DNA of 53,437 bases. It comes from a virus. The DNA lies in IMG/VR virus record IMGVR_UViG_3300025413_001163, positions 1-53,437 of that record; one strand, written 5' to 3'. Under the pieces are notes generated by a model. It worked only from the letters and a program-made list of their open reading frames with translations. It was not told the DNA's origin and did not search any database. A program made the position numbers and the translations under genes. Shown here piece by piece: positions 825 to 49,843 of the stretch (within the stretch, counting starts at the first letter, position 1; each line of letters starts with the position of its first letter).

Positions 825-3800
825 ATGACACAACAAATAATTGATATTGGCGTACAAGGTAATGACGGAACTGGTGACAGTATCCGTACAAGTTTCCAAA
901 AGGTAAACAGTAACTTTAACGAGTTATATGCTATTTTTGGTGCAGGTGGTACTATTAGATTCACTAATTTGTCTGATGCTCCATCGACATATAGTGCCAA
1001 TCAAATTATCATGGCCGATACTACTGGCGGATCACTAAGTGCTAGAACTATTGTTGCAGGAACTGGTATTGGTATTACTACTTCAGACCCTACAAAAATT
1101 ACAATTGCGGCTCTAAGTGCTCGATTAAACAATGATCCTAGTCCAACGCTAAGTGCAAGTATCAACGCAAATCAGTTTAGTATTGGTAATTTAGGCGACC
1201 CAAGCCAGCAGATAGTTGATGATTTCAATGCGTTATATGCTTCACAAAATATTACTACTACCATTGGGCAACTGGCAGTTACAAAGAATTATGCTGATAA
1301 TAATTATGTAGGAACATATAATGGTGTAGTTGCCAAGGCATTGAGAATTCGTGAAGAACCAGCTACTCCGCAAACATCTGATATCGATTACGATGCAACT
1401 TTAACCAGTAACTATGTAAGTACTGAAGCAATGCAACGTAAGCACACCGTATATCGCGGTGGCGATACAATGACCGGGAAATTAAATCTAAACGATCATC
1501 CTGGTTCAATGGCTGGCGCTGGTACTCCTAATGGCGCTGATGACTTACAGGCTGCTACAAAATTTTATGTAGATAACAATACAAACTACAGCACAACAAA
1601 TTTATACGTTAAAACTAACGGAGACGATTTACAAACTAGAACTCCTGCAGGACGCGAAGGTCGTGCGTGGCAGTATGCTTATAAAACTGTAGGTGCGGCA
1701 GCTCTACAAGCACAAAATCTTATTGCATTATCATCAATTGAACCTGGACCATATCGACAACGAATCGCATATACAATTGGACCTACACAAACTTTTAGTA
1801 CAATACAGAGTATTACCCTTACTGGCGGTAATAGCGGAATAGTAGGTTATACAGATGCGGCAGCTATATTAGAAGCAAATAAATCTTTTATTCAAGCTGA
1901 AACCATTGCTTATCTTAACAAGAAATATGTAAACACATTTACATTTGACAAGTCTAGATGGGCTAGCATCATTTCAAATATTGTTGATGCTGTTGGATAT
2001 GATACTGTATTAGGTACAAATTTTAACTCTACAACACAAGCATCAATATTGTTTAATGCATATAACAGTGACATACTTAGCAACAATTTAACTCAAATAA
2101 TTGATGCCGTTAACTATGCTAAAAATCAAGTTCTTAACTTTTCTTACAGCACTGCTAATACTCAAACATACTTAGGTCAAGTAATTGATGCAATCCTATA
2201 TGATATGATCTTTGGATCAAATCTAAGAAGCATCCAAGTTGCGAGAAACTTTAATGTAGCGGCTACTGGTTTAGACACTGCCGCTACTATAGTTAATACT
2301 TCAACGGTTAACACTACATCAGTTACTAATACTGTAACAGTATTATCAACACTAGGTATGATTGTTGGTAGTCCTATTACATTCACAGGAACAAGTTTTG
2401 GTAATATTGTTTCTGGAACAACCTATTACATTCAGTCTATAGTAGACAGTGCAAATATTAAAATTAGTTTGTCAGCAGGTGGATCACCATTTGTGCTTAC
2501 CACACATGCAGGTATAATGTCTGTTTCTACAACTGGACCAAGTCAAGTATCCGCAACATTATCAGATCTTGCGAATACTATCACTTCAGATGCATCTTTT
2601 GCAAATCTACCATCTGCTGTTACATCAATACAAAACAGTATTGCACTTATTCAAGGTATCATTGCAGGTGGAAGTCTTCCTGCAGTTGTGTTTGGTGCAT
2701 TGCCAACTACTAATGATAATTCAACATTTACATTTGATCAATCAAAGTGTAGTCGAGATGTTGGTATTATTGTTAATGCTGTACTAGACGATTTAATATT
2801 TGGTACTAATTATCGCTCAATTACTGCCGCGTTTGCCTATATTAGAAGTTATAGTTCTGTAGTAACATCTTCTCAAAAGGCGCAGACTATTGCTGGTCTT
2901 AACTTTGCTCGTGATGAAATCATTGGCTTGATTCCAACTAATACTGCCGCTATCGCTGCCATTACAGCCAGTATGAGTGTGATTACTACTATTATCAATA
3001 ATGTCAGCACTAGTGGTGCGCCAAGTATAACTTGGACTTATAATAATCCTACTGCGGGCATTAATATTAGTGCTCAGCAATTACAAAACAACCGACAGTT
3101 TTTAATCGATGAAACCATTGCATACATCAATGCAAACCTTAATCCTGGTAGCATTTCGATGTATAACGAGGCAAATTGCCGACGTGACACTGGATACATC
3201 ATTGATGCTATAACATTTGATTTAATCTACAGTGGTAATACTGCTACCGTCGCGGCTGCCGATGCTTATTTCACTGGCACAAATGTAAACACTATTTCTA
3301 CAGAACTTTCATCAGTTACCAGTGCATATACACATTTGAACTCTGTAATCGCATCTGTTATTCCAGGAACATTATATTCTAGAACCACTGGAAATACAAC
3401 AGTACAATCAACAAGTGCCGGAACCGGTACTGCAACCGCTGCCGCAAGCACACTAGTAACTAACGTCATTACTATTATCAATGGTGGGGTTGCTAGTGGG
3501 CCTACACTAGTTGTTCCAACATATGCTAACGGTACTACCTATGCGGCCAACAGTTCATCAAGAACAATTATTCTAAATGGTTTATCAACTGTTCAAGCAA
3601 ACGTAATATTATTCTTAATAGAAACATATCAATCAAATGTTGGTGTGACTAGTGCAAGAGATTTATTATTGAATAACTTATCATTTATTCAAGCTGAAAT
3701 TGTTGCCTTCCTATTGGTCAACTATCCAACATTAAGTTATAGCTCAACTACATGCCAACGAGATGTTAAGTTTATAGTGTGGAGTTTGATCTATGACTTT

Positions 3801-6800
3801 ATGTATGGCGGTAACAGCCAAAGCGTATACGCAGGCCTTCAATATTGGATCGGTAATACCCTACAAATTGCTTCATATGAGCAGACGGCTACTATTGCTT
3901 CTATTAATTATATTAATACATTGTGTCAAGCAATTATCAATAACGTATCACCTTCAACTGTTTATCAACAAAGTGTATACCAATACATCAATCAAACATT
4001 AGGTAATGCTAACATTGTTAGCACTTCGATAGCAAACAACATAACAACTATTGCAGGTATTGTTGGCAGTGTTAGTACGCCAACACCAACATTATATGCT
4101 CCAACTACTAGTAATGCTAGCTCTACATTAAACACAGCTAGACTTGCTATTCTAGCAGAAAAAGCAACAATTGAGTCAACTGAAGTTACCTATGTTAATT
4201 CAACATTCTCTGTAATTAACAATACAATTATTAGTTCTACAATTACTAGTTTGTTTAACGGTGTCACATCGTTATTAACCAACGGCATTGCTTCAAGAAC
4301 TACTCCAACGTTTGTTGATCCTTCATCACTTGTTACTACTACTGCACACGCACGATCTGGTATCCTAGCTAACATTAGTTTTATTGCCGCTGACACTATT
4401 GCTTGGATTAATTTAAATTATCCTTCACTAGTTTATAGTAGTACTACTTGTAGTAGAGACATAACTTATCTACTAGAGGCAATCTGCTATGATTTAACCT
4501 ATGGCGGAAATTCAGGGACTCTGCAAGCCGCATTACAATATTGGTATGCAGGAACACGACAAATTGCCAATGCAGAAGTAACAGCCACAGTTGCCGCAAT
4601 AACACATGCTCAAAGTTTAGCAATTGCAGTCTCATCAAATTCATCTGTAACTAGAACTAGCGGCAACCAAGTTACACAAACATTTAATTCAGTATGGGCT
4701 GATGGCTCTGCGGCAGCTAGTACTATCAACGGATTGTTTAATACTGTCACAGACATTATTGCCAATGATACTGTATACTCTCAATCACTTCCAGACCTAA
4801 CAACATATGCAAGTATTCCTCAGGCGGCTCAAGTAATTTTACATAATAATAAAACTACTATAGCAAACGCAACCAACGTTTATTTGTCTGCAACATATCC
4901 AGGTGGTTTTAATTATAATGAAGCAACCTGCTATAGAGATCTAGGCTATATCATTGATGCTATGGTCATTGACATCTTAACTGGCGGAACTTATCAAAGT
5001 ATCAATGCCGGTAAGAGCTACTATAAAAATGCATCTGCAAAAGCCATTGCTATTGGAACACAGTTAACTGAAACATTAGATGGTATTACCTTTGCTAAGA
5101 ACTTAGGTCTTCAGGTACTTAACAAAACAACACAAACACGTTTCCAAAGTTTAGTAACACAAATAACCAATACATATTCTCCAAGCGCACCTGCAATTGC
5201 TACATTTACTACTAACATGAATACGTTGATCAGTATTATTACTACTGGTTACGGCGCGGCACCTACACCAACATTTGGTACTGGTTTATATTCAATTACT
5301 TTTGACAACGGTGGTAACGGATATGTTGACCAAGGACAGCCCGGCGATTCACACATTATTCCTGCTAAGGTACTAGTTGGTGCCAACAGCAATGCCTTTG
5401 GACAAATTGTAACATATACTCCAGGACAAAGTAATTCATACGACACTATTACTGTGCGTATGGTTCGTCCAGGATTCTTCCAACTTGGCGAACAATTAGA
5501 CTTCGGAGAAACAGTTCCAGAACAACACATTACCATTTACGTTGAAAGTGGTATCTACTATGAAGATTATCCAATTAAACTTTCTGCAAACGTAACTATT
5601 GCAGGTGATGACTTCCGCCGTACTATTATTCGTCCACGCGATCGTATATCACAAAGTCCATGGCGTAGTGTATTCTTCTATCGTGACTCAGTGATTGATG
5701 GTATACAAACAGGTATTATAAATTATTCTGGTGTCGACTATGCTGCCGCTACTGGATCAACTTTAACACTTAGTGGAACTACTGGTAATATTACTGCTAC
5801 ATTAGGTACAGGTCAAGCACCATCAAGTTGGTTAGGTCTAGTAGTAACCGACAGTACTAGCGGTTCTGGTACTCCAGGTAAAGCTGTTGTTAGCACAATT
5901 AGCGGAAACGTATTAAACTTAACAGTGATATATCCGTTTGCTGCCGTAACAACATATGCGGCTGGTTCTTGGCATATGTATGGCACTATTAACTATGGTC
6001 GTCATTATTTGACCAACCCACTAGATATTACAAGTACACCATTAAACAACAAATTAATAGATGTATTCCTATGTAATGATGCTACTCGAATTCGACTAAT
6101 AAGTATGCAAGGCCACGGTGGCTTTGCTATGGTGTTGGATCCAGAAGGTCAAATTAAAACTAAATCCCCGTACGCTCAAGAAAGCGGCAGTTTTAGTCAA
6201 AGTATTAACTATAAGAGATTTGCTGGCGGTCAATTTATTGACGGCTTCACTGGTCGTTTATTTGGTACTATTACTAACGTGGCACAAAACCTTGCTGGTG
6301 TTAATGGTACTCAACTTACAGTTGTAGGTAGTACTAACAGCGGTCTCGATGTACGTGCTCCGCAGACTCCTTGTGCTTTTTATATTCAAGGTAATCGTTT
6401 CCAAGTTAACGATGTTGTAAGTTTTAATGCGGCGACTGCTACTGTTGTTTTAACTATAGATACTGGTACTCCATTCTATCCCCCAAATTTTTACAACACA
6501 AGCACATTTACTACATCATTAGGTAGTGTTATAGATAATATTGGTATTGATATGGTAACTGGCTCTAACTACAAGAGCTTATTTTCAGGTTATGCATACT
6601 TGTTCCCTCAGAATAGTTTAACCATATTAGCCACTTTGTTTACAACTCAAGGTTTAGCATATATTAATTCTAATTTAGGAAGTGTGTCGTCAGCTGGCAA
6701 GGCTTCAATCGCTACTAGCTTGCTTACAATTTCTAATATGCTAAACAACGGTGTCACAACTGTGCCGGCAACTACATTCCCAATACCGAGTGGTGTAAGC

Positions 6801-9800
6801 GGAACTGCTAACATTGTTAAAGCATTAAACACATTACAGGCTAATAGAACATTCTTGCAACAAGAAGTGTCTGCATGGATTGCAGCCACTTATAACGTAA
6901 ACACTATTCCTAATTACAACGCTGTAAAATCTCAACGAGATACTGGATTTATTATTGATGCTATCTGTTATGATATTTTATATGGCGGCAATAGTGCAAT
7001 TTATGATGTGTCGCTAAGTTATTATGGTAGTGGTGTAAGTCAAATTTTAGGAGAAGAATCATATTGTGTTGCCGCATACGGACATTTAAATACCATTATG
7101 CAACAGGTTGTTCAAAATCAAACTGTAAGCAAGGCTGCCGGAAATCCGTATAGTCAAAATACTAGTTTACCTGCGGCTACTTCAGCTGAAGCAACAATAA
7201 TTAATACAGAAATTGGAATTTTATCAGACTATGTTGCTGATGGCGTATTTACTAACCCAACTACTAGAACTACTCCAACAAGTAGCTCATGGTGGTCAAG
7301 TCAAACTGAATATGCTGATTACGGAATATTGCAAGGTTTGAAATCAACATTATTGTCTGGTGCAGTATCATACTTAAATTCAGGCGCTGGATTAGGCATT
7401 AATATTGAGATGGGCGGTAATAAGAGTATGTTGGCCAACGACTTTACACAAATTAACGATTTAGGTTATGGTGTATTTGCAACCAACGGTGGTTTAACTG
7501 AGCAAGTATCTACGTTCTCATATTACTGTTATACAGGTTATTGGGCTAACAACGGTGGTCAGGTTCGAAGTATTGCAGGTTCTAACTCACACGGTGTATA
7601 TGGTTTACGTGCAACAGGTTATGACGTGACTGAGTTACCTGACAGTGTAAACTTAGCCTATGACATGGTTCAAGTGGCTCGTGTTTATAAGCAGGGCGAA
7701 TTCATTAATGCAATGACTCCTACTCAGTCTAAACAAGCTGTTACCGTTTACGTAACTGGTTATGCTTACTTGCCGTTTGGATCAAGCGAACTAGAAATTG
7801 ATCATAGTGTGCAAGGTGGTGGTATTGTTAGATATCTAATATCAACAATTGCACACACCGACGTTACTATTAATGGTAAGAACATTTTATCTATCACTCT
7901 TAGTACTAGCGGCACTGACAGTACAAGTAGCACAGGTTTGCAATATGCACTGTATGACGGACAAACTGTAACTATTCGTGTTCTGCAAGACATTAAGTTT
8001 TTAAACATTGATAACGTTAAACCTGTACGTCCAAGTACTGCGTTACAATACATTGACAATTTATCTGAAATTTATCGAGTAGTTGCTTATAACTTAACTG
8101 AAGCAACTGGCGAAACACTTGGCGCAAATATATCAGTACTACAAACTGATTCTAGTTTTGCCTACTATAAATTTGTATCAGATGGAAGTAACATAACACA
8201 ACTAGACCCGTCAGATTCTACCAAAACTCAAGGTAGTAAAGTTGGTGATAATAAAATTGCTGTGTTAACAATTAGTTCAGCAACAACTGTCAACCAAATT
8301 AATAAAGGAACATATATAGTTGGTTGGGGTGGACGTACTCATCGAGTAATTAGTTATACTCAGCCAACAACTATCTCAACAGGTCTATTTGTCAGTTATA
8401 CTGTAACTTCAGGTCCTACATATACTCTAGTAGTAAACGGAGTTGCTGGAACCATTAGTCAAGGTCAAATCTTAACCAGCACTGGTTCTAGTACAGGATT
8501 TAATGGTACACAAACAGTAACTAGTGTTATTATAACTAGCCCTGGTGGAGTAGCTACTGCAACTATTACATTAAGCGGACCTGCTACAGTTAATCCACCA
8601 ACTGGAACTGTTACTTTTGGTGTTGCAACCAATGGTTATTTAAGTATTGATCCAAATCCATTAAGCAACTTAGCATCCGATGGCACTCTTGTAAACGCTA
8701 TGACCTATGTTAGTAGTGTTGCCCAAACAGGTAGTACAACAGCTAAGATTGTAACATTTAACATTCCTTATATTCCGTCAGCTCAATTACCTGCGGTTGA
8801 CAGTTATCTAACTGTGACTAGCAACAGCAATAGTAATTACAATGGAACTAAGCAGATTACCAGCATTGTCAATACTACTCAACTAACTGTATCAAGTACT
8901 GCTAGTTTATCAGTAGGTATGGTTGTATCTTCAACTAGTACTGGTGCATATGTTCCAACAGGAACTATTATTCAAAGTATTGATAGCACTACACAATTTA
9001 CAGTAAGTCCATCATGCTGGATCCCAGCTGGTAGTATTGTAAGTTCAAGTTTAGTAGCCACTGTACAAAGTATTACAATTACTAATGGCGGTTCAGGGTA
9101 CACAACTGCTCCAACTATAACATTCTCTGGTGGTAGTGCTACTAGTCAAGCTATTGCTACAGTAAGTATTGCCAACGGTGCCATCGTAGCTTACACTCTA
9201 GTAAGTCCAGGCTATGGTTATACAAGTACTCCAACTATCACAATAACTCCGGCATTAGGTGGAGCAATACTTACACCGGTATTAACAACTACTGCAACTA
9301 TCACGACAACTGCATCAGCTGGTAACAACACTGTGACTATGGGATTGTTGTATCCAACAGATCCAGGAGTAAACTCAAATGTTACTGCAACAACTAATGG
9401 TACTGTAAGCGCCACTGGTAAAATTGCAGGTACTGTATTAAGTTTAACTAACGTTGCATCAGGTACACCATCGTTAGGTATGGTACTAAGCGGAACTGGA
9501 GTTACTGCTGGAACATATATTAGTGCTGTTAATACTGCATCGTTTGTTGGAAATATTACAAGTACAACTACATTGACTATTGTGTCAGGTACTACTCCAA
9601 GTATTGGTATGGTGTTGGTTGGAGCGGGTATACCTTCTGGAACATATATTGCCAGCGGTACTGGTCCATTTACATTGAGCGCGGCAGCGTCTAATGGCAC
9701 TAACATTGGCATTGTTGGCACTAGTTATACTGTTAGTGCAAGTCAAACTGTTAACGCAGGAACTGCAATATCTGGTTTATTAAACGCATTAACCGTTGCA

Positions 9801-12611
9801 TCTACTACTGGATTAAATGTTGGGCAACAAATATCGTTTAGCGGAACTGCGTTTGGAACTGGATCAATCCTAACACCATTCAACGGTATTACACCAAACA
9901 TAATTTATTATATCAATCGAGTTGTAGGAACATACATTGGTATTAGTACCACACTAGGCGGAAACGATATAACATTGACTTCGGGTAGTGTTAGTGTTGG
10001 AACTGCTCTTGCATTGTATACTCCAAACTATGGGTATGGAACTAGTTATGCTATTAATGCATCGACTGGATTTACAAGCAAGACTATTATCGGTAGTGGG
10101 CCAACTTATAGTGTAGTATTGAATTTCAGCACAACAACTGCTCCAACTACAGGCAAATATTATCTTGTATCAGGAAATGGTAATCCATTGTATAATGGTT
10201 ACTATCTATGTACAGCTAGCAGTTCTACTACTATCACCCTAACGTATCTTGAAGATCCAGGTACATGGAATACTGGATATGCTACTACTGTCACATTAGA
10301 AGTAACTAATGGCAGTGGAAATACCCTAGGTATTGGCCGACCATTTAATACTATAAACAATGCTACATTGCGTGTTGGTAGACCTGCAGGAGCTGCCGCA
10401 CAGATTACTACACGTATTAGTACTTGCCGCGCTACAGGGCATGACTTCTTAGACATTGGTACAGGCGGATATGTTACTACTAACTATCCTGTGCAGATTT
10501 ATGGTAATCCAGCAATACAGGCAAACAGTGCCAATCAGGTATTAGAAGAAACTGTTGGACGTGTGTTCTATGTAACAACAGACGAAAACGGTATTTTCCG
10601 TGTAGGACGTTTCTTCAGCGTTGACCAAGGTACTGGTACTGTTACATTTAGTGCAAGTATTGCGTTAAGTAATTTGGACGGTCTAGGATTTAAACGTGGT
10701 GTAGTTGTTACTGAATTCTCAACAGATCCTACTATGACTGATAATGCTCCGGACATTGTTCCAGTGCAGTCAGCAATACGTAGCTTCATTGATAATCGAT
10801 TAGGTCTAGATTATGGCGGTAGTCCAGTAGCCACAACTAGTTTAATTGGCCCAGGTTACTTAGCATTAAATGGTACCTTGGCTATGAAGGGTAACCTAAA
10901 CTTAGGTAACTTTAGTATTGGCAATGTAACTATGCCAACTACCGGCACTAGCAAGTATGACGGTGCTAATAGAGATTACGTTGACCAAAGTTTAGTTTCA
11001 TTGAACTCATTCTACAAACTACTAGATGTGGGAATTTCTGCTGCCAAGGGTACCTACGTAAGTGGAAGTAGTATTAGTTATGTATTAACTGTTAATAATA
11101 TCTCTGGAACTATTGTTAACGGTCTAGCTGTGTATGGTACAGGTTTTAACGGAACTCAAACAGTTCAAAGCGTAAGTGTTAATGCCGGTGTTGCTACTGT
11201 TACACTTGGATCATATCCAAACAGTAACCCAAGCGGAACTATATTCTTCTTAAGTCCAGTAGCTGGTGGATCATTCTTAGTTTATGATGCTGGATTAGGT
11301 AAATGGAAAAATGTAACAGCACCAACTGGTGATTTAGCCATAACTTATAACTCTGGGACTGGAGCAATTACTACTAGTATCAATGCTGGTGTAATTACTA
11401 ACGCTGGAATTAGTTCTAGTGCGGCAATTGCGCAAAACAAATTAGCAATGAATGCCGCCACAACACGAGTTAACTACACAGGAATTACTCAAGCTAATTT
11501 AGGTCTAGCTAGTTTTAACAGTTCATCATTTAGTAGTACTAGCGGTTGGATTGACTTATTAACAAGTACTAGCCCAACTACAGGTATTACCTATAATAAA
11601 ATACAGCAAATGAGTGCTGGCACATTACTAGGTAATTTAACTAGTGGTGCCGCAAGTCCATCTGAAATAACTCCGTCTCAAATTATATCGTCAGCTAACG
11701 GTATTGTCAGCGGATCTTTTGCTGCCAGTGGTGCTATGATTGTAGGATATGACGGATCTAATACTGCAAATAACACCTATGGTGTTGTCAGTATCACTAC
11801 AACACGAGGTGCTAACAGCCTAGTGAAGAGTGGGCCAGACGGAAGTGTTGACGTTGCTAACTTAAAAGTTGGCGGATTTACTGTTCTATCAACTTCTGGA
11901 GCTACTGTAGAATTTAGTACTCCAGGTGGCATACAACAGTCTACTCCTTTCTACTACATGACTGCTGTAGGTACTACTGGTAGTAATACAACTATTACTA
12001 CGCAAGGTACATTAGATACTAGCAACGGAACATTAATCGCTGATACACTTACTTCAGGTAGTCCTGCTACTAGCGGATCAATGGAAGGTCAATGGTACTT
12101 GACTGCAAGTAGTCAATTTGATTTTAGTCTAGGTATATTAAAATCTAATAACTTAACAGCTGGTTCAAGCACTGCGGCTGGTACTATTGATGGTAACTGG
12201 AATTTAACAACAGGCAGTCAATTACGCAGTACCTATGCCGACTTAGCTGAGTTCTACGAAGGTGACAAAGAGTATCCAGAAGGATGGGTGTTAGTGTTCG
12301 GCGGTGAAAAAGAAGTTACTAGTACAACAACATTTAACGACACTAGACTAGCTGGTGTAGTAACAACTAATCCAGCTTACGTAATGAACGAAGGACAAAA
12401 AGGTATTAAGGTCTGTTTAGCACTAGCAGGTCGTATCCCATGTCGAGTAGTTGGCAAAGTTAAGAAAGGCGATTTACTAACAACATCGGCTGTAGAAGGT
12501 TGTGCAGTCAAGGCAACTAATCCACAAATTGGTAGCATAGTTGGTAAAGCTATTCAGGACAAAGACTACGATAGTGTGGGTGTAATTGAAGTTGCCGTAG
12601 GGAGAGCATAA
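825..12611 (+). CDS. Giant tail-fibre / structural protein (3,928 residues)
   Basis: An unbroken frame of 3,928 codons, with GGAG 8 bases before ATG825. The N-terminus (MTQQIIDIG, then FQKVNSNFNELYA) is shared with the next gene, so it is probably a common virion-attachment module. Residues about 370-2060 hold roughly nine helical repeats around a core like C-x-RD-x-GYIIDAI-x-x-DL-x-YGGN. Residues about 1560-1640 look like a pectin-lyase-type beta-helix entry. Residues about 2500-3200 are Thr/Ser/Gly-rich adhesin-like repeats. The end (from about 3802, YADLAEFYEGD) resembles the C-terminal auto-cleavage or chaperone domain of some phage appendages (Peptidase_G2 type). Such proteins are known from T4-like cyanophages. 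Assignment as a fibre or baseplate-linked structural protein is well supported; its exact place in the virion is inferred. Confidence 0.85.
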   Translation: MTQQIIDIGVQGNDGTGDSIRTSFQKVNSNFNELYAIFGAGGTIRFTNLSDAPSTYSANQIIMADTTGGSLSARTIVAGTGIGITTSDPTKITIAALSARLNNDPSPTLSASINANQFSIGNLGDPSQQIVDDFNALYASQNITTTIGQLAVTKNYADNNYVGTYNGVVAKALRIREEPATPQTSDIDYDATLTSNYVSTEAMQRKHTVYRGGDTMTGKLNLNDHPGSMAGAGTPNGADDLQAATKFYVDNNTNYSTTNLYVKTNGDDLQTRTPAGREGRAWQYAYKTVGAAALQAQNLIALSSIEPGPYRQRIAYTIGPTQTFSTIQSITLTGGNSGIVGYTDAAAILEANKSFIQAETIAYLNKKYVNTFTFDKSRWASIISNIVDAVGYDTVLGTNFNSTTQASILFNAYNSDILSNNLTQIIDAVNYAKNQVLNFSYSTANTQTYLGQVIDAILYDMIFGSNLRSIQVARNFNVAATGLDTAATIVNTSTVNTTSVTNTVTVLSTLGMIVGSPITFTGTSFGNIVSGTTYYIQSIVDSANIKISLSAGGSPFVLTTHAGIMSVSTTGPSQVSATLSDLANTITSDASFANLPSAVTSIQNSIALIQGIIAGGSLPAVVFGALPTTNDNSTFTFDQSKCSRDVGIIVNAVLDDLIFGTNYRSITAAFAYIRSYSSVVTSSQKAQTIAGLNFARDEIIGLIPTNTAAIAAITASMSVITTIINNVSTSGAPSITWTYNNPTAGINISAQQLQNNRQFLIDETIAYINANLNPGSISMYNEANCRRDTGYIIDAITFDLIYSGNTATVAAADAYFTGTNVNTISTELSSVTSAYTHLNSVIASVIPGTLYSRTTGNTTVQSTSAGTGTATAAASTLVTNVITIINGGVASGPTLVVPTYANGTTYAANSSSRTIILNGLSTVQANVILFLIETYQSNVGVTSARDLLLNNLSFIQAEIVAFLLVNYPTLSYSSTTCQRDVKFIVWSLIYDFMYGGNSQSVYAGLQYWIGNTLQIASYEQTATIASINYINTLCQAIINNVSPSTVYQQSVYQYINQTLGNANIVSTSIANNITTIAGIVGSVSTPTPTLYAPTTSNASSTLNTARLAILAEKATIESTEVTYVNSTFSVINNTIISSTITSLFNGVTSLLTNGIASRTTPTFVDPSSLVTTTAHARSGILANISFIAADTIAWINLNYPSLVYSSTTCSRDITYLLEAICYDLTYGGNSGTLQAALQYWYAGTRQIANAEVTATVAAITHAQSLAIAVSSNSSVTRTSGNQVTQTFNSVWADGSAAASTINGLFNTVTDIIANDTVYSQSLPDLTTYASIPQAAQVILHNNKTTIANATNVYLSATYPGGFNYNEATCYRDLGYIIDAMVIDILTGGTYQSINAGKSYYKNASAKAIAIGTQLTETLDGITFAKNLGLQVLNKTTQTRFQSLVTQITNTYSPSAPAIATFTTNMNTLISIITTGYGAAPTPTFGTGLYSITFDNGGNGYVDQGQPGDSHIIPAKVLVGANSNAFGQIVTYTPGQSNSYDTITVRMVRPGFFQLGEQLDFGETVPEQHITIYVESGIYYEDYPIKLSANVTIAGDDFRRTIIRPRDRISQSPWRSVFFYRDSVIDGIQTGIINYSGVDYAAATGSTLTLSGTTGNITATLGTGQAPSSWLGLVVTDSTSGSGTPGKAVVSTISGNVLNLTVIYPFAAVTTYAAGSWHMYGTINYGRHYLTNPLDITSTPLNNKLIDVFLCNDATRIRLISMQGHGGFAMVLDPEGQIKTKSPYAQESGSFSQSINYKRFAGGQFIDGFTGRLFGTITNVAQNLAGVNGTQLTVVGSTNSGLDVRAPQTPCAFYIQGNRFQVNDVVSFNAATATVVLTIDTGTPFYPPNFYNTSTFTTSLGSVIDNIGIDMVTGSNYKSLFSGYAYLFPQNSLTILATLFTTQGLAYINSNLGSVSSAGKASIATSLLTISNMLNNGVTTVPATTFPIPSGVSGTANIVKALNTLQANRTFLQQEVSAWIAATYNVNTIPNYNAVKSQRDTGFIIDAICYDILYGGNSAIYDVSLSYYGSGVSQILGEESYCVAAYGHLNTIMQQVVQNQTVSKAAGNPYSQNTSLPAATSAEATIINTEIGILSDYVADGVFTNPTTRTTPTSSSWWSSQTEYADYGILQGLKSTLLSGAVSYLNSGAGLGINIEMGGNKSMLANDFTQINDLGYGVFATNGGLTEQVSTFSYYCYTGYWANNGGQVRSIAGSNSHGVYGLRATGYDVTELPDSVNLAYDMVQVARVYKQGEFINAMTPTQSKQAVTVYVTGYAYLPFGSSELEIDHSVQGGGIVRYLISTIAHTDVTINGKNILSITLSTSGTDSTSSTGLQYALYDGQTVTIRVLQDIKFLNIDNVKPVRPSTALQYIDNLSEIYRVVAYNLTEATGETLGANISVLQTDSSFAYYKFVSDGSNITQLDPSDSTKTQGSKVGDNKIAVLTISSATTVNQINKGTYIVGWGGRTHRVISYTQPTTISTGLFVSYTVTSGPTYTLVVNGVAGTISQGQILTSTGSSTGFNGTQTVTSVIITSPGGVATATITLSGPATVNPPTGTVTFGVATNGYLSIDPNPLSNLASDGTLVNAMTYVSSVAQTGSTTAKIVTFNIPYIPSAQLPAVDSYLTVTSNSNSNYNGTKQITSIVNTTQLTVSSTASLSVGMVVSSTSTGAYVPTGTIIQSIDSTTQFTVSPSCWIPAGSIVSSSLVATVQSITITNGGSGYTTAPTITFSGGSATSQAIATVSIANGAIVAYTLVSPGYGYTSTPTITITPALGGAILTPVLTTTATITTTASAGNNTVTMGLLYPTDPGVNSNVTATTNGTVSATGKIAGTVLSLTNVASGTPSLGMVLSGTGVTAGTYISAVNTASFVGNITSTTTLTIVSGTTPSIGMVLVGAGIPSGTYIASGTGPFTLSAAASNGTNIGIVGTSYTVSASQTVNAGTAISGLLNALTVASTTGLNVGQQISFSGTAFGTGSILTPFNGITPNIIYYINRVVGTYIGISTTLGGNDITLTSGSVSVGTALALYTPNYGYGTSYAINASTGFTSKTIIGSGPTYSVVLNFSTTTAPTTGKYYLVSGNGNPLYNGYYLCTASSSTTITLTYLEDPGTWNTGYATTVTLEVTNGSGNTLGIGRPFNTINNATLRVGRPAGAAAQITTRISTCRATGHDFLDIGTGGYVTTNYPVQIYGNPAIQANSANQVLEETVGRVFYVTTDENGIFRVGRFFSVDQGTGTVTFSASIALSNLDGLGFKRGVVVTEFSTDPTMTDNAPDIVPVQSAIRSFIDNRLGLDYGGSPVATTSLIGPGYLALNGTLAMKGNLNLGNFSIGNVTMPTTGTSKYDGANRDYVDQSLVSLNSFYKLLDVGISAAKGTYVSGSSISYVLTVNNISGTIVNGLAVYGTGFNGTQTVQSVSVNAGVATVTLGSYPNSNPSGTIFFLSPVAGGSFLVYDAGLGKWKNVTAPTGDLAITYNSGTGAITTSINAGVITNAGISSSAAIAQNKLAMNAATTRVNYTGITQANLGLASFNSSSFSSTSGWIDLLTSTSPTTGITYNKIQQMSAGTLLGNLTSGAASPSEITPSQIISSANGIVSGSFAASGAMIVGYDGSNTANNTYGVVSITTTRGANSLVKSGPDGSVDVANLKVGGFTVLSTSGATVEFSTPGGIQQSTPFYYMTAVGTTGSNTTITTQGTLDTSNGTLIADTLTSGSPATSGSMEGQWYLTASSQFDFSLGILKSNNLTAGSSTAAGTIDGNWNLTTGSQLRSTYADLAEFYEGDKEYPEGWVLVFGGEKEVTSTTTFNDTRLAGVVTTNPAYVMNEGQKGIKVCLALAGRIPCRVVGKVKKGDLLTTSAVEGCAVKATNPQIGSIVGKAIQDKDYDSVGVIEVAVGRA

Positions 12612-40527: not shown

Positions 40528-42204
40528 ATGGCCGTTTTACAGATTTCCAAAATACAGGTCCGTAGAGGACAAGAGTTAGTTACAGGTGTACCTACCTTAT
40601 CAGCAGGTGAATTTGCCTGGTCAACTGACGTACAAAAACTATATATTGGTAACGGTAGTACAGCTAGTCCTACAGCCGGCGGTGATGGTGCTCCAACTGT
40701 AGGTAACACTGAAATTTTAACTATTAACAGCATTGCCAATGGTAATCTGTTCAGCCTAGAATCTTATCAATACGAAAAGAACAACCCAATTATACAAACA
40801 GGACCTACGAATTTTCCTGTTATTCGAACCCTACAATCTAAACTAGATGATAGTGTTACAGCCAACGATTTTGGCGCAGTGGGTGATGGCGCAACTGATG
40901 ATACTAAAGCTCTGCAACAAGCTATCAGTCAGTTGTATGCAAATACTGATGCCAACAATCCATCTAGTCGTAAACCTCTAAGAATTCCCGCAGGTACATA
41001 TCTAATAACAGGCACATTGTTTATTCCTCCATACGCAACAATCATAGGCGATGGTATTGATAAAACAATCATACAACAACTAACCACTGGTACCGCTGTC
41101 ATGCAATTTTGCGGACTAAGTGCTAGCCAACCAGGTGTATTAACAACATGGAACGCTAGTAGCATACAAGGCGGTCGTTACCAACCTCAAGAAATTTCAA
41201 TCGATGGTATGACTATCGGATATGCATCGGCATTAGCAGAAGTTGGAGAACAAGGATTAATCGAAGCCGACTGTGTTTTAGATTCTAAAATATCTAATGT
41301 AAAATTTGAAGGCGCAAATACAACTCCTCCGGCATCACTACCTGGCGTAGCAGGAATCGAAATACGAGGACTTGGAGCGACTACTACTAAGAATCTTAAA
41401 ATCAATAACTGTATATTTGAGAAATTAAGTACAGCTATTGTTTCAAAATACGACAGCAGTGAAATTTATATTTCTAATAGTCAGTTTCGAAATCTAACCA
41501 TTGGTATTGATTTCTTTGACTACAGAGCAGGCGGATACGGAAGCTGGCCAAACGTGCCTGCGTACTCTGTTCCTGTTAGCGTTGGTCCACAACACGTGTT
41601 TATTCAAAACAATAGATTTGAGAATATCTATGAGCAAGCAGTATTCGTAGGAACAAATACAAACAATACACCTTCTTTCATTAACAGTACCAACAATGAA
41701 TATTTTAATTGCGGTAATAGATTAACAACTGAAGCTTCGCAGAGCTATGAAGTGCTAGGATATTATACTCCAAACAATACCAGCTTCAATGATTATTTCT
41801 TTAGAACAGATGAATATAATACTGTAACTAATACAGCAACAGCATACTTACCTACTGTTATGAGTCCTGCTTACATACAAAGTAGAGCTCCTGTTACTGC
41901 GACTCTTAATCCGTCGATCTTAACATTTCAACCAGTATTAACTGTGGCTAAGACTCCAACAGATCAATCTATAAAATTATCATATATTGCCACACAAGCT
42001 AGTGTTACTAGACGTGGCGATCTATTAGTGACCTGCAACAGCAATGGTCCTGCAGTAACAGACACATATACATACATAGGTGCCAATGATGGACAAATAG
42101 TTTTTACAGCTACTATAACAACATCATCTAGTGCATTGACTATCAGTGCTTTGGTTCCGTATACACAAACCTATCTAGAATTCGAATACTATCAGTTGTA
42201 TTAA
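40528..42204 (+). CDS. Tailspike-like protein with a pectin-lyase fold
   Basis: A 558-residue protein. Residues 1-60 (MAVLQISKIQVRRGQELVTG, then SAGEFAWSTDVQKLYIGNG) are a docking domain of the phage-fibre type. Residues about 112-400 begin with NDFGAVGDGATDDTKALQQA and IPAGTYLITGTLFIP, the standard entry into a right-handed beta-helix, and continue with N-rich coils such as LKINNCIFEKLSTAIVSKYD. These tailspikes often cleave host polysaccharide, though no catalytic residues can be assigned here. The last 100 residues are a beta-sandwich-like cap. Confidence 0.85.
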   Translation: MAVLQISKIQVRRGQELVTGVPTLSAGEFAWSTDVQKLYIGNGSTASPTAGGDGAPTVGNTEILTINSIANGNLFSLESYQYEKNNPIIQTGPTNFPVIRTLQSKLDDSVTANDFGAVGDGATDDTKALQQAISQLYANTDANNPSSRKPLRIPAGTYLITGTLFIPPYATIIGDGIDKTIIQQLTTGTAVMQFCGLSASQPGVLTTWNASSIQGGRYQPQEISIDGMTIGYASALAEVGEQGLIEADCVLDSKISNVKFEGANTTPPASLPGVAGIEIRGLGATTTKNLKINNCIFEKLSTAIVSKYDSSEIYISNSQFRNLTIGIDFFDYRAGGYGSWPNVPAYSVPVSVGPQHVFIQNNRFENIYEQAVFVGTNTNNTPSFINSTNNEYFNCGNRLTTEASQSYEVLGYYTPNNTSFNDYFFRTDEYNTVTNTATAYLPTVMSPAYIQSRAPVTATLNPSILTFQPVLTVAKTPTDQSIKLSYIATQASVTRRGDLLVTCNSNGPAVTDTYTYIGANDGQIVFTATITTSSSALTISALVPYTQTYLEFEYYQLY

Positions 42205-42696: not shown

Positions 42697-45054
42697 ATGA
42701 TCACAGTTGTCAAGCGTAGTGGCGAAAGAGTGCCTCTAGACATAGCAAAAATACAAAGACAAGTTGCATTTGGATGCAAGGGAGTAGATGGGGTAAGCCC
42801 GTCAATGATTGAGATCAAGGCTCAAATAGAATTACACGATGGAATGACGACAGAAACGATTGACGAACTACTATTAAAAGCGATGGTAGATTTAATCGAC
42901 GAAGAAGAAAATCCAGAAATCAACAATGTAAATTATCAATACGTAGCAGGACGCCAGAAGGTATCGATGCTACGCAAGGAAGTATATGGAACATATACTC
43001 CACCAAAACTATACGACATAGTTAAAAAGAATGTAGAACTAAACATGTACACTCCAGAACTTCTAGAGTGGTATACCGAGGATGAATGGAACATTATCGA
43101 TTTGTTTATCGATCATGCCAAGGACGAAGAATATACTTACGCGGCTATCGCCCAGTTGGCTGAAAAGTATTTGGTACAGAATCGTGCCACTGGTCAAATT
43201 TATGAAACACCGCAGATACGTTATGCTATTGCGGCCGCGACAGCATTTCATAATGAGCCCGCAGATAAGAGGTTAAAATATGTCAAAGAATACTACGAAT
43301 GTGCGAGTGATGGTCACTTTACTCTTGCTACTCCTGTGTTGGCCGGTCTTGGCACACCTACTAAACAATTTAGTTCGTGTGTTCTTATTAGTAGTGACGA
43401 CACATTAGATTCAATCTTCGCCGCCGGCGAGATGATGGCCAAGTACGCTAGTAAACGTGCTGGCATTGGATTAGAGATTGGTCGTATACGTCCTTTAGGC
43501 GCCCCTATTAGGAATGGAGAAATAAAACACACTGGTCTAATCCCATTTCTAAAGAAGTGGTTCGCTGATTTAAGATCATGCTCGCAAGGTGGTATCCGAA
43601 ATGCATCATGCACAGTTACACTACCTGTTTGGCATGCGCAGTTTGAAGACTTTATCGTATTGAAAAATAATCAAGGTACTGAGGAAGTTCGTGTTCGTCA
43701 AATGGATTACAGTATCGTAGTCAATAAGATGTTTTGGAATCGCTATCGTAAAGGCGAAAACATTACTTTGTTTAATCCCGCAGAAGTTCCAGACTTATAC
43801 CAAGCATACTATCGCGACTCTGCAGAATTTGAAAAGTTATATCTAAATTACGAGAAGCATCCAACAATTAAAAAGAAAGTTGTATCAGCAGAGGATATCT
43901 TCAAGAACGGTATTTTAAAAGAACGTACAGATACAGGAAGAATTTACCTTGTCAATATCGACAACGTCATCAATCAAGGTCCGTTCGATACAAAGACCGA
44001 TCCGATATATCAAAGCAACTTGTGTCAAGAAATACTATTGCCTACACGACCTTTTCAAAGAATTGAAGACCCTAACGGACGTATTGCCCTATGTACACTT
44101 GGAAGCATAAATTGGGGAGCGTTCAACAACCCACAACAGATGCGTAAAGCATGCCGTGTACTAGTTCGTAGTTTAAGTAACTTGCTGAGCTATCAAGATT
44201 TCCTAAGTATTCAAAGTAAACTTGCTAATGAAGATTTTGAACCATTAGGCGTTGGTATTACTAACCTAGCTTACTGGCATGCTAAACGTAGTTTGAAATA
44301 CGGCGAAACTGACGCCCTGGCCGAAGTCAAACGCTGGATGGAACATCAGGCATATTTCCTAACTGAAATGAGTGTAGAGCTTGCCCAAGAGAAGGGCCCA
44401 TGCGGACGTAGTCAATACACTTATTATGGTAAAGGCGTATTTCCCTGGGAACGTAGAAATGCTGGAGTAAATGAATTAACTGATTTTACTCCAAGTATGG
44501 ATTGGGAAAGTCTACGCAAAAATATGTTGCAATATGGAATTAGAAATGCTACACTTATGGCTGTAGCACCAGTTGAATCTAGTTCTGTTGTTTTAAATTC
44601 TACCAACGGTATTGAAATGCCAATGGAAATGATTTCTGTTAAGGAATCAAAAGCAGGATCGTTCGTACAGGTAGTACCAGAATACAAACGTCTAAAAAAT
44701 CGTTACCAACTAATGTGGGATCAAAAAGACTGTGATGGTTATTTGAAAACCGCGGCTGTACTTGCGGCTTATATTGATCAAAGTCTATCAACTAACACAT
44801 TTTATAATCCTGCGCATTTTGCAGAAGGTAAAGTTCCTGGAACATTGATTGCTAAGAATCTAATGTTAGCCTACAAGTGGGGCATCAAGACTATATACTA
44901 TAGTCTAATCAACAAAGTTGGTGCGAAAGCATCAATGGCTGGAACCAGCACTAATACAATTGGTGTGAACGGTCATGCTACTGGTATTATCACCGCAGAC
45001 AACGCTGTGCTTTACGAAGCATTAGATGACGATTGTGAAAGTTGTAAATTATAA
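42697..45054 (+). CDS. nrdA: Class Ia ribonucleotide reductase, large (alpha) subunit
   Basis: A 785-residue protein, close to the family length (about 750-780). It reduces ribonucleoside diphosphates to deoxy forms with NrdB. Residues 1-90 are an ATP-cone (VVKRSGERVPLDIAKIQRQV). Active-site residues visible are C228 (QFSSCVLI), N441, C443 and E445 (NLCQE), C466 (ALCTLGS), the paired tyrosines in TIYYSLI for radical transfer, and the C-terminal redox pair C780/C783 (CESC) that glutaredoxin reloads. The next genes encode NrdB and a glutaredoxin, giving a complete reductase set. Confidence 0.97.
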   Translation: MITVVKRSGERVPLDIAKIQRQVAFGCKGVDGVSPSMIEIKAQIELHDGMTTETIDELLLKAMVDLIDEEENPEINNVNYQYVAGRQKVSMLRKEVYGTYTPPKLYDIVKKNVELNMYTPELLEWYTEDEWNIIDLFIDHAKDEEYTYAAIAQLAEKYLVQNRATGQIYETPQIRYAIAAATAFHNEPADKRLKYVKEYYECASDGHFTLATPVLAGLGTPTKQFSSCVLISSDDTLDSIFAAGEMMAKYASKRAGIGLEIGRIRPLGAPIRNGEIKHTGLIPFLKKWFADLRSCSQGGIRNASCTVTLPVWHAQFEDFIVLKNNQGTEEVRVRQMDYSIVVNKMFWNRYRKGENITLFNPAEVPDLYQAYYRDSAEFEKLYLNYEKHPTIKKKVVSAEDIFKNGILKERTDTGRIYLVNIDNVINQGPFDTKTDPIYQSNLCQEILLPTRPFQRIEDPNGRIALCTLGSINWGAFNNPQQMRKACRVLVRSLSNLLSYQDFLSIQSKLANEDFEPLGVGITNLAYWHAKRSLKYGETDALAEVKRWMEHQAYFLTEMSVELAQEKGPCGRSQYTYYGKGVFPWERRNAGVNELTDFTPSMDWESLRKNMLQYGIRNATLMAVAPVESSSVVLNSTNGIEMPMEMISVKESKAGSFVQVVPEYKRLKNRYQLMWDQKDCDGYLKTAAVLAAYIDQSLSTNTFYNPAHFAEGKVPGTLIAKNLMLAYKWGIKTIYYSLINKVGAKASMAGTSTNTIGVNGHATGIITADNAVLYEALDDDCESCKL

Positions 45055-45063
45055 AAGGTTAAC

Positions 45064-46164
45064 ATGAGCAAAGCACAATACGACATTAGTCGTCAGACTA
45101 ATTACCTCAAAAGAAAGATGTTTCTGGATCCAGAAGGTCCAGTTACAGTCCAACGATTCGAAGAAGTAAAATATCCTAAGATTGCCAAGTATGAAGAAAC
45201 AGCACGTGGTTTCTTTTGGGTACCGGAAGAAATTAGTTTAACCAAAGATAAAATTGATCATAAAGAAGCATCTGATGCTGTTAAACATATTTTTACTAGT
45301 AATCTATTGCGTCAAACAGCACTAGACAGTATTCAAGGTCGTGCACCATCACAGGTTTTCAGCCCAGTTATATCGATTCCAGAACTTGAAGCATTGGTCA
45401 GTAATTGGAGTTTCTTTGAAACAAATATTCACTCAAAATCTTACTCGCACATTATTCGCAACGTCTACGGTGTACCTAAAGAAGAATTCAACAAGATACA
45501 CGATACTAAAGAAATCGTAGATATGGCCGCAAATATCGGCAGGTACTACGAACAACTACACAGAATCAACTGCCAGAAAGAAATGGACGGCGATATTAAT
45601 GAAGCAGAACATGTCAAAGCTATTTGGTTAGCTCTAAATGCTAGCTATGCACTAGAAGCGTTCCGCTTTATGGTTAGCTTTGCTACAAGTTTAGCCATGG
45701 TAGAAAATAAGATATATATTGGTAATGGTAATATTATCAGCTTGATCCTACAAGATGAAATCTTACATGCAGAATGGACAGCTTTCCTAATTATGCAAGT
45801 TGTTAAAGAAGATGAACGTTTTGCACAGGCTAAGATTGATTGCGAACAAGAAGTATATCAAATGTACTTAGATGTTATACATGAAGAAAAAGCATGGGCA
45901 GACTATCTATTCAGCAAGGGTGTTGTTATTGGACTTAATGCACAGATCCTAAAAGATTTCGTAGATTATACAGCGTTTACTAGATTAAAAGAAATTGGTA
46001 TCAAGTACCTAGAAGAACATCCTCGCCAGAGTCCAATCCCATGGTTTAACAAACACGTAAATATCAACAAGAAACAAACAGCATTACAAGAAAACGAATC
46101 TACTAACTACGTCATTGGGGTAATGAGCGATAGTGTTAGTTATGATGAATTACCGGAGTTATAA
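45064..46164 (+). CDS. nrdB: Class Ia ribonucleotide reductase, small (beta) subunit
   Basis: A 366-residue radical-cofactor subunit. Iron ligands can be placed by comparison with E. coli NrdB from memory: D88 (LDSIQGR), E119, H123, E198 (EAFRFMVSF), E232 and H235 (DEILH). The radical tyrosine is probably Y127 (HSKSY). E119 and H123 are four apart rather than three as in E. coli E115/H118, so one residue is inserted in this helix (ETNIHS against ETIHS). Start ATG45064 lies 9 bases after the nrdA stop; the glutaredoxin gene abuts its end. Confidence 0.95.
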   Translation: MSKAQYDISRQTNYLKRKMFLDPEGPVTVQRFEEVKYPKIAKYEETARGFFWVPEEISLTKDKIDHKEASDAVKHIFTSNLLRQTALDSIQGRAPSQVFSPVISIPELEALVSNWSFFETNIHSKSYSHIIRNVYGVPKEEFNKIHDTKEIVDMAANIGRYYEQLHRINCQKEMDGDINEAEHVKAIWLALNASYALEAFRFMVSFATSLAMVENKIYIGNGNIISLILQDEILHAEWTAFLIMQVVKEDERFAQAKIDCEQEVYQMYLDVIHEEKAWADYLFSKGVVIGLNAQILKDFVDYTAFTRLKEIGIKYLEEHPRQSPIPWFNKHVNINKKQTALQENESTNYVIGVMSDSVSYDELPEL

Positions 46165-47009: not shown

Positions 47010-47705
47010 ATGAATGTTCGACTACTTAGTTACAGCCAGCCAACTGAAGAATTTGCAAGCGTGGGAATTAATGACGCACAAGAGCTCATTGCCTATTGCG
47101 CCCGTGTCAGCAATCCCTCCAATCAACTTAACACCGAAACATCGGAGAAACTCATACGATACTTGGTCAAGCACCAGCACTGGAGTCCACTCGAAATGGT
47201 CTCAGCCTGTATCGAAATCACAACTACCCGTGATATTGCCCGACAGATCCTCAGACATAGATCTTTTAGCTTTCAAGAATTTTCTCAGCGATACGCAGAC
47301 CCTACTAAAGACCTTAACTTTGTCACAAGAGAAGCAAGACTGCAAGACACAACCAACAGACAAAATTCAAGAGATCTCAACCTCGAAGATGATATGCACC
47401 GCCAGATCGCATATCAGTGGGAAAACTTACAAAGAGATATCATTGCTAAGTCAAGAGAAACCTACGAATGGGCTGTCAGTCGTGGCATAGCTAAAGAACA
47501 AGCAAGAGCTGTATTACCAGAAGGTCTAATTGAAAGCCGTATATACATGAACGGCACCCTACGCTCATGGGTACACTTTATTGAATTACGTAGTGCCAAC
47601 GGTACACAAAAAGAACACCAAGAAGTTGCTATAGCCTGTGCAAAAGTAATTTCGGAAGTATTTCCAATGGTAGGGGAATATGTCCAACCTAGCCAAAGGT
47701 CGTAA
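47010..47705 (+). CDS. thyX: Flavin-dependent thymidylate synthase
   Basis: A 231-residue enzyme that makes dTMP from dUMP with FAD, NADPH and methylene-tetrahydrofolate. The ThyX signature is present at 82-94: R82-H83-R84, then S92-x-R94 (RHRSFSFQEFSQR). ESRIYMNGTLRSWVHFIELR (about 175-194) carries the catalytic Ser/Arg region of the C-terminal half. Its place after the reductase genes completes a dNTP-supply block. It overlaps the next gene by 26 bases. Confidence 0.96.
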   Translation: MNVRLLSYSQPTEEFASVGINDAQELIAYCARVSNPSNQLNTETSEKLIRYLVKHQHWSPLEMVSACIEITTTRDIARQILRHRSFSFQEFSQRYADPTKDLNFVTREARLQDTTNRQNSRDLNLEDDMHRQIAYQWENLQRDIIAKSRETYEWAVSRGIAKEQARAVLPEGLIESRIYMNGTLRSWVHFIELRSANGTQKEHQEVAIACAKVISEVFPMVGEYVQPSQRS

Positions 47706-48456: not shown

Positions 48457-49311
48457 ATGGCAACCCCATGGATAAGCAGTAGCATACAACGATTAAGTAG
48501 TGATCCTGGCGTTCATGATCTCTACAAAAGTCCTAACGTTATTATCAACGGACAAAAGGTAGTATTGTACGGTGAGCCATCGATGAACGGAAATAATCCT
48601 AGCATCACTTTAGCGATGTCCGTTCCGGAATTAACTCCATTAGATAAACCATCCAATCCGGGAAGCACAACAACTGTAAGCGGAGATCAACCTGCTTCAG
48701 TTGCATTGCCAGACACAGATGCACCGGCTATAACAAGCGCACCTCCAGGTACTGTTGTTCAAACTAATGGCGATATTAAAGCCTTCCTTGATGCAAGGCT
48801 AGCAGAAGCCGCAACTTGGACTAGAGGTGCCGCACCGTTAGGTCCTGGTGGAAATCAAAATATCGTAGGTATATTCAAAGATCTAGGTTGTGGTACTTGG
48901 GCACAAGATGAAAAAACTCCATGGTGTGCAGGCTTTGTTAATTTTACATTAAAAAATACTGGTTACAAATATACACAAGATTTAGGAGTAGCATCGATTT
49001 ATGCCAATCCAAGTAAATGGGGCGGTACTGTAAAATATCAGCGTGGCACAACTGCAACCAATTGGCAATCAGCCAGTCCCGGGGATATTTCCATTTGGGA
49101 TTACGGAAATCCCAAAGGTAGTCACGTTAATTTTGTATATGCAAATTTAGGCAGTACATTGCAATTCTGCGGTGGAAATCAAGGCGGTAAAACTGTTAAC
49201 AATAATAACCCTAGTGGTAGTAGTGTTACTAATGGATCCAAATGGAGTCCAAGTATTGATAAGCCCGGTTCTTACAGTCTAATGATGATATTCACGCCTG
49301 CAAAGCGTTAA
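48457..49311 (+). CDS. CHAP-like cell-wall hydrolase
   Basis: A 284-residue protein. Residues about 105-283 form a CHAP or TIGR02594-like domain: PWCAGFVNFTLKNTGY, with catalytic C157, then SPGDISIWDY and GSHVNFVYAN, with H223. This family cleaves peptide bonds in peptidoglycan. The first 100 residues are Pro/Thr/Ser-rich and could anchor it to the baseplate. It may be an endolysin or a virion-associated enzyme. There is no signal peptide. The two-piece tmRNA follows on the same strand. Confidence 0.8.
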   Translation: MATPWISSSIQRLSSDPGVHDLYKSPNVIINGQKVVLYGEPSMNGNNPSITLAMSVPELTPLDKPSNPGSTTTVSGDQPASVALPDTDAPAITSAPPGTVVQTNGDIKAFLDARLAEAATWTRGAAPLGPGGNQNIVGIFKDLGCGTWAQDEKTPWCAGFVNFTLKNTGYKYTQDLGVASIYANPSKWGGTVKYQRGTTATNWQSASPGDISIWDYGNPKGSHVNFVYANLGSTLQFCGGNQGGKTVNNNNPSGSSVTNGSKWSPSIDKPGSYSLMMIFTPAKR

Positions 49312-49375
49312 ATAATATTATCCGTTAAGCGTAGTTGCATAGCAATTCCAGATTATTATTAGGCGAGAGTAGGTC

Positions 49376-49404
49376 TTGACGGGCTCGTCAAAAGATAGTA
49401 TAAT
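49376..49404 (+). promoter_or_regulatory. Sigma-70 promoter of the tmRNA
   Basis: TTGACG (49376-49381) and a perfect TATAAT (49399-49404) are separated by 17 bases. Transcription would start near 49411, just before the acceptor piece. This is the best host-type promoter in the window. Confidence 0.85.
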
Positions 49405-49476
49405 TAAAGTTATTGTTGTAATTCCTTCAAAGCGAAGGCGTTGCGGACCCGGGTTCGACTCCCGGCAGGTCCACCA

Positions 49477-49532
49477 AAAGTGTATCGTATAGTATTCGAT
49501 ACGAAAGCTGGCCAGGCTGGTACACTTTTGAT
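49477..49532 (+). other. Excised spacer between the two tmRNA pieces
   Basis: These 56 bases lie between the encoded CCA and the coding-piece 5' end. AAAGTGTA (49477-49484) pairs with TACACTTT (49521-49528), and TCGTAT (49485-49490) pairs with ATACGA (49499-49504). The fold would close the loop joining the two pieces and place the cut sites next to the acceptor stem. Confidence 0.75.
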
Positions 49533-49602
49533 GGGCCTGTATTGGCTTCGACGTGGCGAGATAGTAGAGACGGCAACACAGTAGGCGATGACTGTAAATC
49601 AA

Positions 49603-49695
49603 GCAAATTATACAAATGCAAACACATTTGAATTCAAGACTTTCAGCGTAGAAGAAGTTGCTAGCAACGACTTCGCGTTCGAATTAGCGGCCTAA
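49603..49695 (+). other. tmRNA tag-peptide reading frame
   Basis: The likely resume codon is GCA 49603, in the TGTAAATCAAGCAAAT context. The frame gives a 30-residue tag that begins ANYTNANTFEF and ends NDFAFELAA, then TAA (49693-49695). The ELAA end fits the C-terminal degron recognised by ClpXP-type proteases. The frame is also open upstream to GCG 49585, so a slightly longer tag cannot be ruled out. Confidence 0.8.
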
Positions 49696-49742
49696 GAAAC
49701 CGCTCTTGCGAGGTAGTTATACCTTGTCATCCAAAATAGCAG

Positions 49743-49769
49743 AAAGCATCTTCGGGTGCTTTTCTTTTG
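49743..49769 (+). terminator. Intrinsic terminator of the tmRNA
   Basis: GAAAGCATC and GGTGCTTTTC form about nine base pairs around a TTCG tetraloop, with TTTT after it. It ends the tmRNA transcript. Confidence 0.85.
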
Positions 49770-49843
49770 TCAACTAAACCCTCTCCTTAGGCGTTATTAG
49801 TATATGCACCCTAAGGAGGGAATTATGCTAATGAGGACTAGGA

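Follow-up and report, generated by a model that had tools for sequence, protein, structure and literature searches.

The window, by which we mean the whole 53437-base stretch of DNA analysed here, encodes a permuted (two-piece) tmRNA at 49411-49770, as confirmed by covariance models and by the anatomy of the gene. Quite probably, this is a functional phage tmRNA of the beta-proteobacterial type, which would perform trans-translation during infection with the SmpB of the host. The Rfam model tmRNA_permuted (RF04321) matched 49414-49695 with 133.4 bits (E = 5e-26; cut-off 47), and beta_tmRNA (RF01850) matched 49362-49765 with 125.6 bits over model positions 1-331 (cut-off 84), both above gathering. 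ARAGORN also called a permuted tmRNA, with the tag ANTFEFKTFSVEEVASNDFAFELAA. Taken together, the three calls span 49362-49786. The gene does not belong to alpha_tmRNA (RF01849), since beta_tmRNA had the best score of the clan and the T-loop is UUCGACU, not of the GGCRGUR type. Nor is it a one-piece tmRNA (RF00023), in which the coding half comes first; here, the acceptor half precedes it.

The coordinates and the two-piece anatomy given in the original prediction were upheld by these searches, and so were the gene's own promoter and its UUCG-loop terminator (Table 1). From the position of the promoter, transcription is expected to start near 49411, and several relatives have TATAAT at the same place. 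The two acceptor strands pair at 7/7 positions, including G3:U70, the alanine identity pair. Folded together with the intervening segment, they reached -33.5 kcal/mol (z = -5.7 versus shuffles).

Table 1. Positions of the tmRNA gene, its parts and neighbouring genes in the window
Feature	Position	Strand	Remarks
nrdA and nrdB	42697..46164	+	class Ia ribonucleotide reductase; nrdB served as phage marker in this analysis
thyX	47010..47705	+	thymidylate synthase
Upstream neighbour of tmRNA	48457..49311	+	284 aa
Promoter, sigma-70 type	49376..49404	+	TTGACG-17-TATAAT; 11/12 matches
Acceptor half	49414..49476	+	P2 strands, GGAC, T-arm, acceptor strand, A73, CCA
T-stem	49449-49453/49461-49465	+
T-loop	49454-49460	+	UUCGACU
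Acceptor strand of acceptor half	49466-49472	+	CAGGUCC; A73 next
Encoded CCA	49474-49476	+
Intervening segment	49477..49532	+	expected to be excised; long stem extending the acceptor stem
Start of coding half	49533..49617	+	acceptor strand, D-arm, P2 strands, first hairpin
Acceptor strand of coding half	49533-49539	+	GGGCCUG; G1 = 49533
Tag reading frame	49618..49695	+	resume codon GCA at 49618; stop TAA at 49693
Intrinsic terminator	49742-49763	+	UUCG loop; with U-rich tail to 49770

Phage nature of the record

The window is a linear IMG/VR virus record, from a freshwater phage, and probably a fragment. Seven other IMG/VR contigs were 100% identical to it over 4.4-11.5 kb, the tmRNA gene included, and a 69-kb contig overlapped it for 34.5 kb at 99.8% and ran 34 kb past its end. 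Over the resulting stretch of about 88 kb, phage-like genes flank the tmRNA on both sides. Those in the window include tail fibres, a baseplate wedge connector, nrdA/nrdB, thyX and an exonuclease. The extension contains an endolysin, phage-only families, DnaK and a FecR-domain protein, whose only matches among isolates were in HTVC008M and Melnitz. No integrase was found among the proteins scanned from the window phage, and no tRNAs in the window. The copy is viral, as had been argued originally, and does not lie on a host chromosome. The upstream neighbour, taken to be a CHAP hydrolase, had no Pfam match and weakly matched endolysin or baseplate hub-lysozyme families instead. The surroundings include tail, baseplate and replication genes of a phage, but neither a terminase nor a major capsid protein was identified among the proteins scanned from this fragment. 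Thus a T4-like or Kyanoviridae-like tailed phage is likely, not proved, from its structural and replication genes.

One reading frame of 3928 aa without a Pfam match occupies 825-12611. At 40528-42204 lies a tail protein with an Mtd N-terminal domain and a pectate-lyase-like repeat; no reverse transcriptase to accompany it was seen among the proteins scanned. The DnaK of the extension (L132:1099-3036, minus strand) is full-length, and DnaK is also encoded by some huge phages.

Conservation among related phages

Relatives were found via nrdB, at 82-90% protein identity. Permuted tmRNA was present in 19 of the 46 contigs searched, which were mostly selected by nrdB and mostly fragments; as only this part of them carries it, the gene does not look essential. 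In the relatives that have it, the distance to nrdB, which lies upstream in the same orientation, is often 3-5 kb.

We aligned the window tmRNA with those of 18 relatives and surveyed 25 base pairs across the 19 sequences. Compensatory changes, with both sides altered, were observed at 16 of the 25. Pairing was kept in 97.7% of the alignment cells, compared with 43-46% when the alignment was slid, and the covariation score was 0.531, against 0.187 for shuffled and at most 0.10 for slid controls. In the P2 helix that joins the halves (helices 1 and 2), 8/13 pairs had changed on both sides. G3:U70 was present in 181/181 unique phage cores, although the extraction required a stem ending in GGG/UCC and thus favours that pair. 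The intervening segment extends the acceptor stem by at least 5 pairs in 176/180 phage cores. These patterns indicate that the structure is kept by selection in the phage clade, and they are the marks that a working trans-translation RNA would leave in its sequence. In four relatives (L188, L213, L220 and L228), the intervening segment is very short (26-27 nt) and ACCU stands in place of ACCA.

The tag

The tag of the window comprises 25 aa and ends in LAA. It is long in comparison with the bacterial permuted genes sampled, nearly all of which had tags of 10-13 aa; other phages had tags of 26-33 aa. AA is the ending of 65 among 78 distinct phage tags. In the window tag, the C-terminal 11 residues (ASNDFAFELAA) are similar to the 13-aa tag ANASNDEVYALAA found in two relatives (L157 and L190), so its length reads as an insertion near the start. 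In another relative, L156, the tag differs from that of the window by one residue (75/78 nt identical). The neighbouring hydrolase of L156 is just 73% identical to that of the window, and identity is 58-69% in the P2/PK1 region, 74-80% in the arms of the tRNA-like domain and 43% in the intervening segment. As the tag is far more similar than the rest, it is either strongly constrained or was recently exchanged as a module. The 25-aa tag does not start with AND, and adaptors such as SspB may deal with it differently. No SspB was found among the window-phage proteins scanned with Pfam.

Proposed function and alternatives

No SmpB gene was found in the approximately 88 kb of the window phage, nor in the isolate phages that carry permuted tmRNA; the host SmpB is therefore presumably used. 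In the mechanism that we favour, the gene would be transcribed from its own promoter, RNase P would cut before G1 and other host RNases after the CCA. The 56-nt intervening piece would be lost, while P2 and the acceptor stem would keep the two pieces together. Host AlaRS would charge the tmRNA via G3:U70, and host SmpB and EF-Tu would deliver it to ribosomes stalled on truncated mRNAs, where the LAA-ending tag would be added and would lead to ClpXP-type proteolysis. The phage would benefit because ribosomes stay available in late infection, a time at which many mRNAs are broken by nucleases of the host and the phage. Expression, processing, charging and delivery are inferred here from known tmRNA biology, our own data being features of the sequence.

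The same molecule might instead serve mainly as a weapon, tagging host proteins for degradation so that amino acids are recycled or host factors removed. This idea has been put forward for Melnitz (PMC9004378) and agrees with an intact, LAA-ended tag. However, a tmRNA tags any nascent chain on a stalled ribosome without a choice of protein, and we saw no sign of targeting; we consider this role unlikely. It is very unlikely that the RNA is a decoy or inhibitor that keeps SmpB away from the host tmRNA by titration, a role suggested for a gene of phage DS6A that comprises the tRNA-like domain only. An RNA of that domain does inhibit tmRNA (PMC4131195) and the window phage is without SmpB, yet a decoy would need no tag, P2 or terminator-bounded coding half, and all of these are kept.

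The level of free phage tmRNA might also report ribosome stalling and so set the timing of lysis. The gene does adjoin a lysozyme-like gene, and a sensor is a general suggestion for phage tmRNAs cited in PMC7162821. Against it, no regulatory link was found and other phages have their tmRNA beside nrdA or tRNA genes, which leaves the sensor highly improbable. Islands commonly integrate at tmRNA genes, and one might finally suspect that the gene was captured from a host and does not function, or that the contig is misfiled host DNA. We give hardly any credence to this. Phage-like genes flank the tmRNA over about 88 kb and seven contigs are identical, and the compensatory changes in the phage clade refute the idea in the main. 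Trans-translation with the SmpB of the host remains the reading that we prefer.

Comparison with known systems

The original prediction knew only of one-piece phage tmRNAs, and its claim of novelty does not hold. Two-piece phage tmRNAs were reported in 2022 (in phage Melnitz, with 53 found via ARAGORN), and the same two roles were proposed for them (PMC9004378). Stenotrophomonas phage tmRNAs are annotated in some GenBank records, and we confirmed that the gene of phage Yut2 is permuted. Permuted genes as a whole are covered by one Rfam model. As a two-piece phage tmRNA, the window gene is thus not the first of its kind, but its tag is unusually long.

Methylophilales phage Melnitz and Pelagibacter phage HTVC008M have a permuted tmRNA and no phage SmpB, like the window phage, and share with it a FecR-domain gene beside curli-like genes. 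For their tmRNAs the best model is alpha_tmRNA, for that of the window beta_tmRNA. The Melnitz gene is followed by a glutamine riboswitch and encodes a tag of 14 aa, whereas the window has a terminator and 25 aa. Stenotrophomonas Menderavirus phages such as Yut2 have a beta-type permuted tmRNA near nrdA, as in the window; unlike the window gene, that of the Yut2 type lies upstream of nrdA among tRNA genes and has the tag VAANDDSYTVRIAA. Betaproteobacterial genes of RF01850 (Rhodocyclales) agree with the window in the order of halves, the tRNA-like domain, P2 and the tag position, but they have ACCC/ACCT ends and 10-aa tags such as ANDERFALAA, compared with ACCA and 25 aa. Mycobacteriophages Bxz1 and Wildcat and Bacillus phage G also carry a trans-translation RNA, but in one piece with the coding half first. 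The tmRNA of Wildcat is its most highly expressed lytic gene (PMC7474061), which demonstrates that a phage can make heavy use of its tmRNA and is consistent with a genuine role during infection.

Possible exchange of the tRNA-like domain

Three main elbow types occurred among the 181 unique cores, with the T-loops UUCRA, UGCRA and GGCAGU; the elbow of the window is UUCGA. UUCRA mostly occurred together with (U/C)GGAC and a UUCGAC D-arm that contains GG. UGCRA was combined with a UUCGAC D-arm containing UAG (28/29), and GGCAGU with AAGAC and (A/C)UCGAU (58/59). The D-arm side was absent from the two search patterns that yielded most cores, and the coupling of T-loop and D-arm is therefore a result on that side. 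It rests on this wider count of 181 cores, which ignores relatedness; a sign test of independent elbow switches comprised four pairs on well-supported branches (P = 0.125). Locus L204 has a P2/PK1 body identical to those of L289, L220, L318, L319 and L373, with a different T-loop and D-arm.

L204 and L289 share 3.4 kb upstream of the gene at 86%, and their P2 strand is identical (33/33 nt). They then diverge, with 16/23 matches in the T-arm, unrelated intervening segments and 7/13 in the D-arm; past the D-arm the match resumes (79/91). Such differences are likely to result from exchange of a tRNA-like-domain cassette, judged from the alignments. For 29 of 58 GGCAGU cores, there was a twin of the GGAC type (elbow UUCRA or UGCRA) that shared 57 or more of the 63 body bases. 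In the nrdB tree, the GGCAGU phages do not form one clade (AU test, P = 0.0011). The elbow type changes at least seven times on the best nrdB tree, although nrdB may itself recombine, so that the number of exchanges is uncertain. Related phages thus have, at homologous positions, tmRNA bodies that are almost the same but bear different elbow types, each with its own matching D-arm. In the permuted gene the cassette is contiguous, in the order T-arm, acceptor, intervening segment, acceptor, D-arm. One exchange event is therefore enough to replace the entire domain. We tentatively suggest that phages of this group exchange the cassette and that the driver may be fit to the SmpB, AlaRS or EF-Tu encountered in a new host. 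Targeted searches of the open-access literature returned no account of elbow exchange.

The GGCAGU loop with a tmRNA acceptor end was present in 152 of 385 alpha genomes (control 0), and the AAGAC form of the GGCAGU relatives in none of the 385. Alpha hosts were rejected as the direct source of this elbow, as the loop is alpha-like but its closing pairs were not seen in alpha hosts. When a GGCAGU-elbow gene was searched by BLAST against isolate phages, the sole match was a terminator in Acidovorax phage ACP17. The isolate phages of gamma and beta hosts that we found have UUCGA elbows, except for Melnitz, which was grown on a beta-lineage host and has an alpha-like T-loop. We hypothesize that the elbow is matched to the host, with this one exception. 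If so, the elbow would report host range and could be a usable host marker for uncultured phages, and a tmRNA tree would not be a simple record of host history, contrary to the reading given to the Melnitz mismatch. Near-identical bodies with different elbows are natural pairs for testing which parts of tmRNA must match SmpB.

Distribution and origin of permuted genes

The nearest bacterial form of the window gene is the Rhodocyclales/beta type, with a best core identity of just 69%. A tree of the tRNA-like domain including bacterial copies, as had been proposed, was poorly resolved, and the window belonged to none of its starred groups; a donor can therefore not be named. Our bacterial samples were centred on a Rhodocyclales genome, which GTDB assigns to the class Gammaproteobacteria. 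Of 369 genomes in the class sample, 2 had a permuted gene, one of them being the centre itself, as had 16 of 300 genomes of its order; the standard (one-piece) model scored over its cut-off in 100/114. The Rhodocyclales permuted genes (L044-L062) end in ACCC or ACCT, the final A of CCA not being encoded. Phage permuted genes mostly end in ACCA. Although CCACCA was a condition of the first viral search, it played no part in finding the isolates.

Permuted tmRNA was present, largely unannotated, in isolate phages of Pseudomonas, Xanthomonas, Stenotrophomonas, Alcaligenes and Acinetobacter. The genes unannotated in GenBank are those of Pseudomonas phage PA_L9, Xanthomonas phages X1 and Rb1, Stenotrophomonas phage QDWS359, Alcaligenes phage QDWS595 and Acinetobacter phage BUCT628 (L038, L039, L040, L041, L042 and L511); across L040, a hypothetical protein is annotated in antisense. 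The hosts of these phages presumably use one-piece tmRNA, in line with the class-level count. The permuted form in phages of Pseudomonas, Xanthomonas, Stenotrophomonas and Acinetobacter, bacteria of a class in which tmRNA is almost always one-piece, is new. Because many phages of one-piece hosts carry it, long circulation of the window tmRNA among phages appears more likely than recent capture from a host. The earlier suggestion that it was taken from a host is thus too simple, and simple capture was rejected on the low core identity, the different CCA end and the lack of a donor group in the tree.

In Dechloromonas agitata (L063/L065, G018:C1:1035817-1036400), a second, lower-scoring permuted-tmRNA match lies about 150 bases away on the opposite strand. 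The permuted tmRNA of another bacterial genome (G633, locus L078) is possibly part of a prophage and encodes an unusual tag of 28 aa, GNQPSNLQVMQQFDVPTPANGDQYLNVA.
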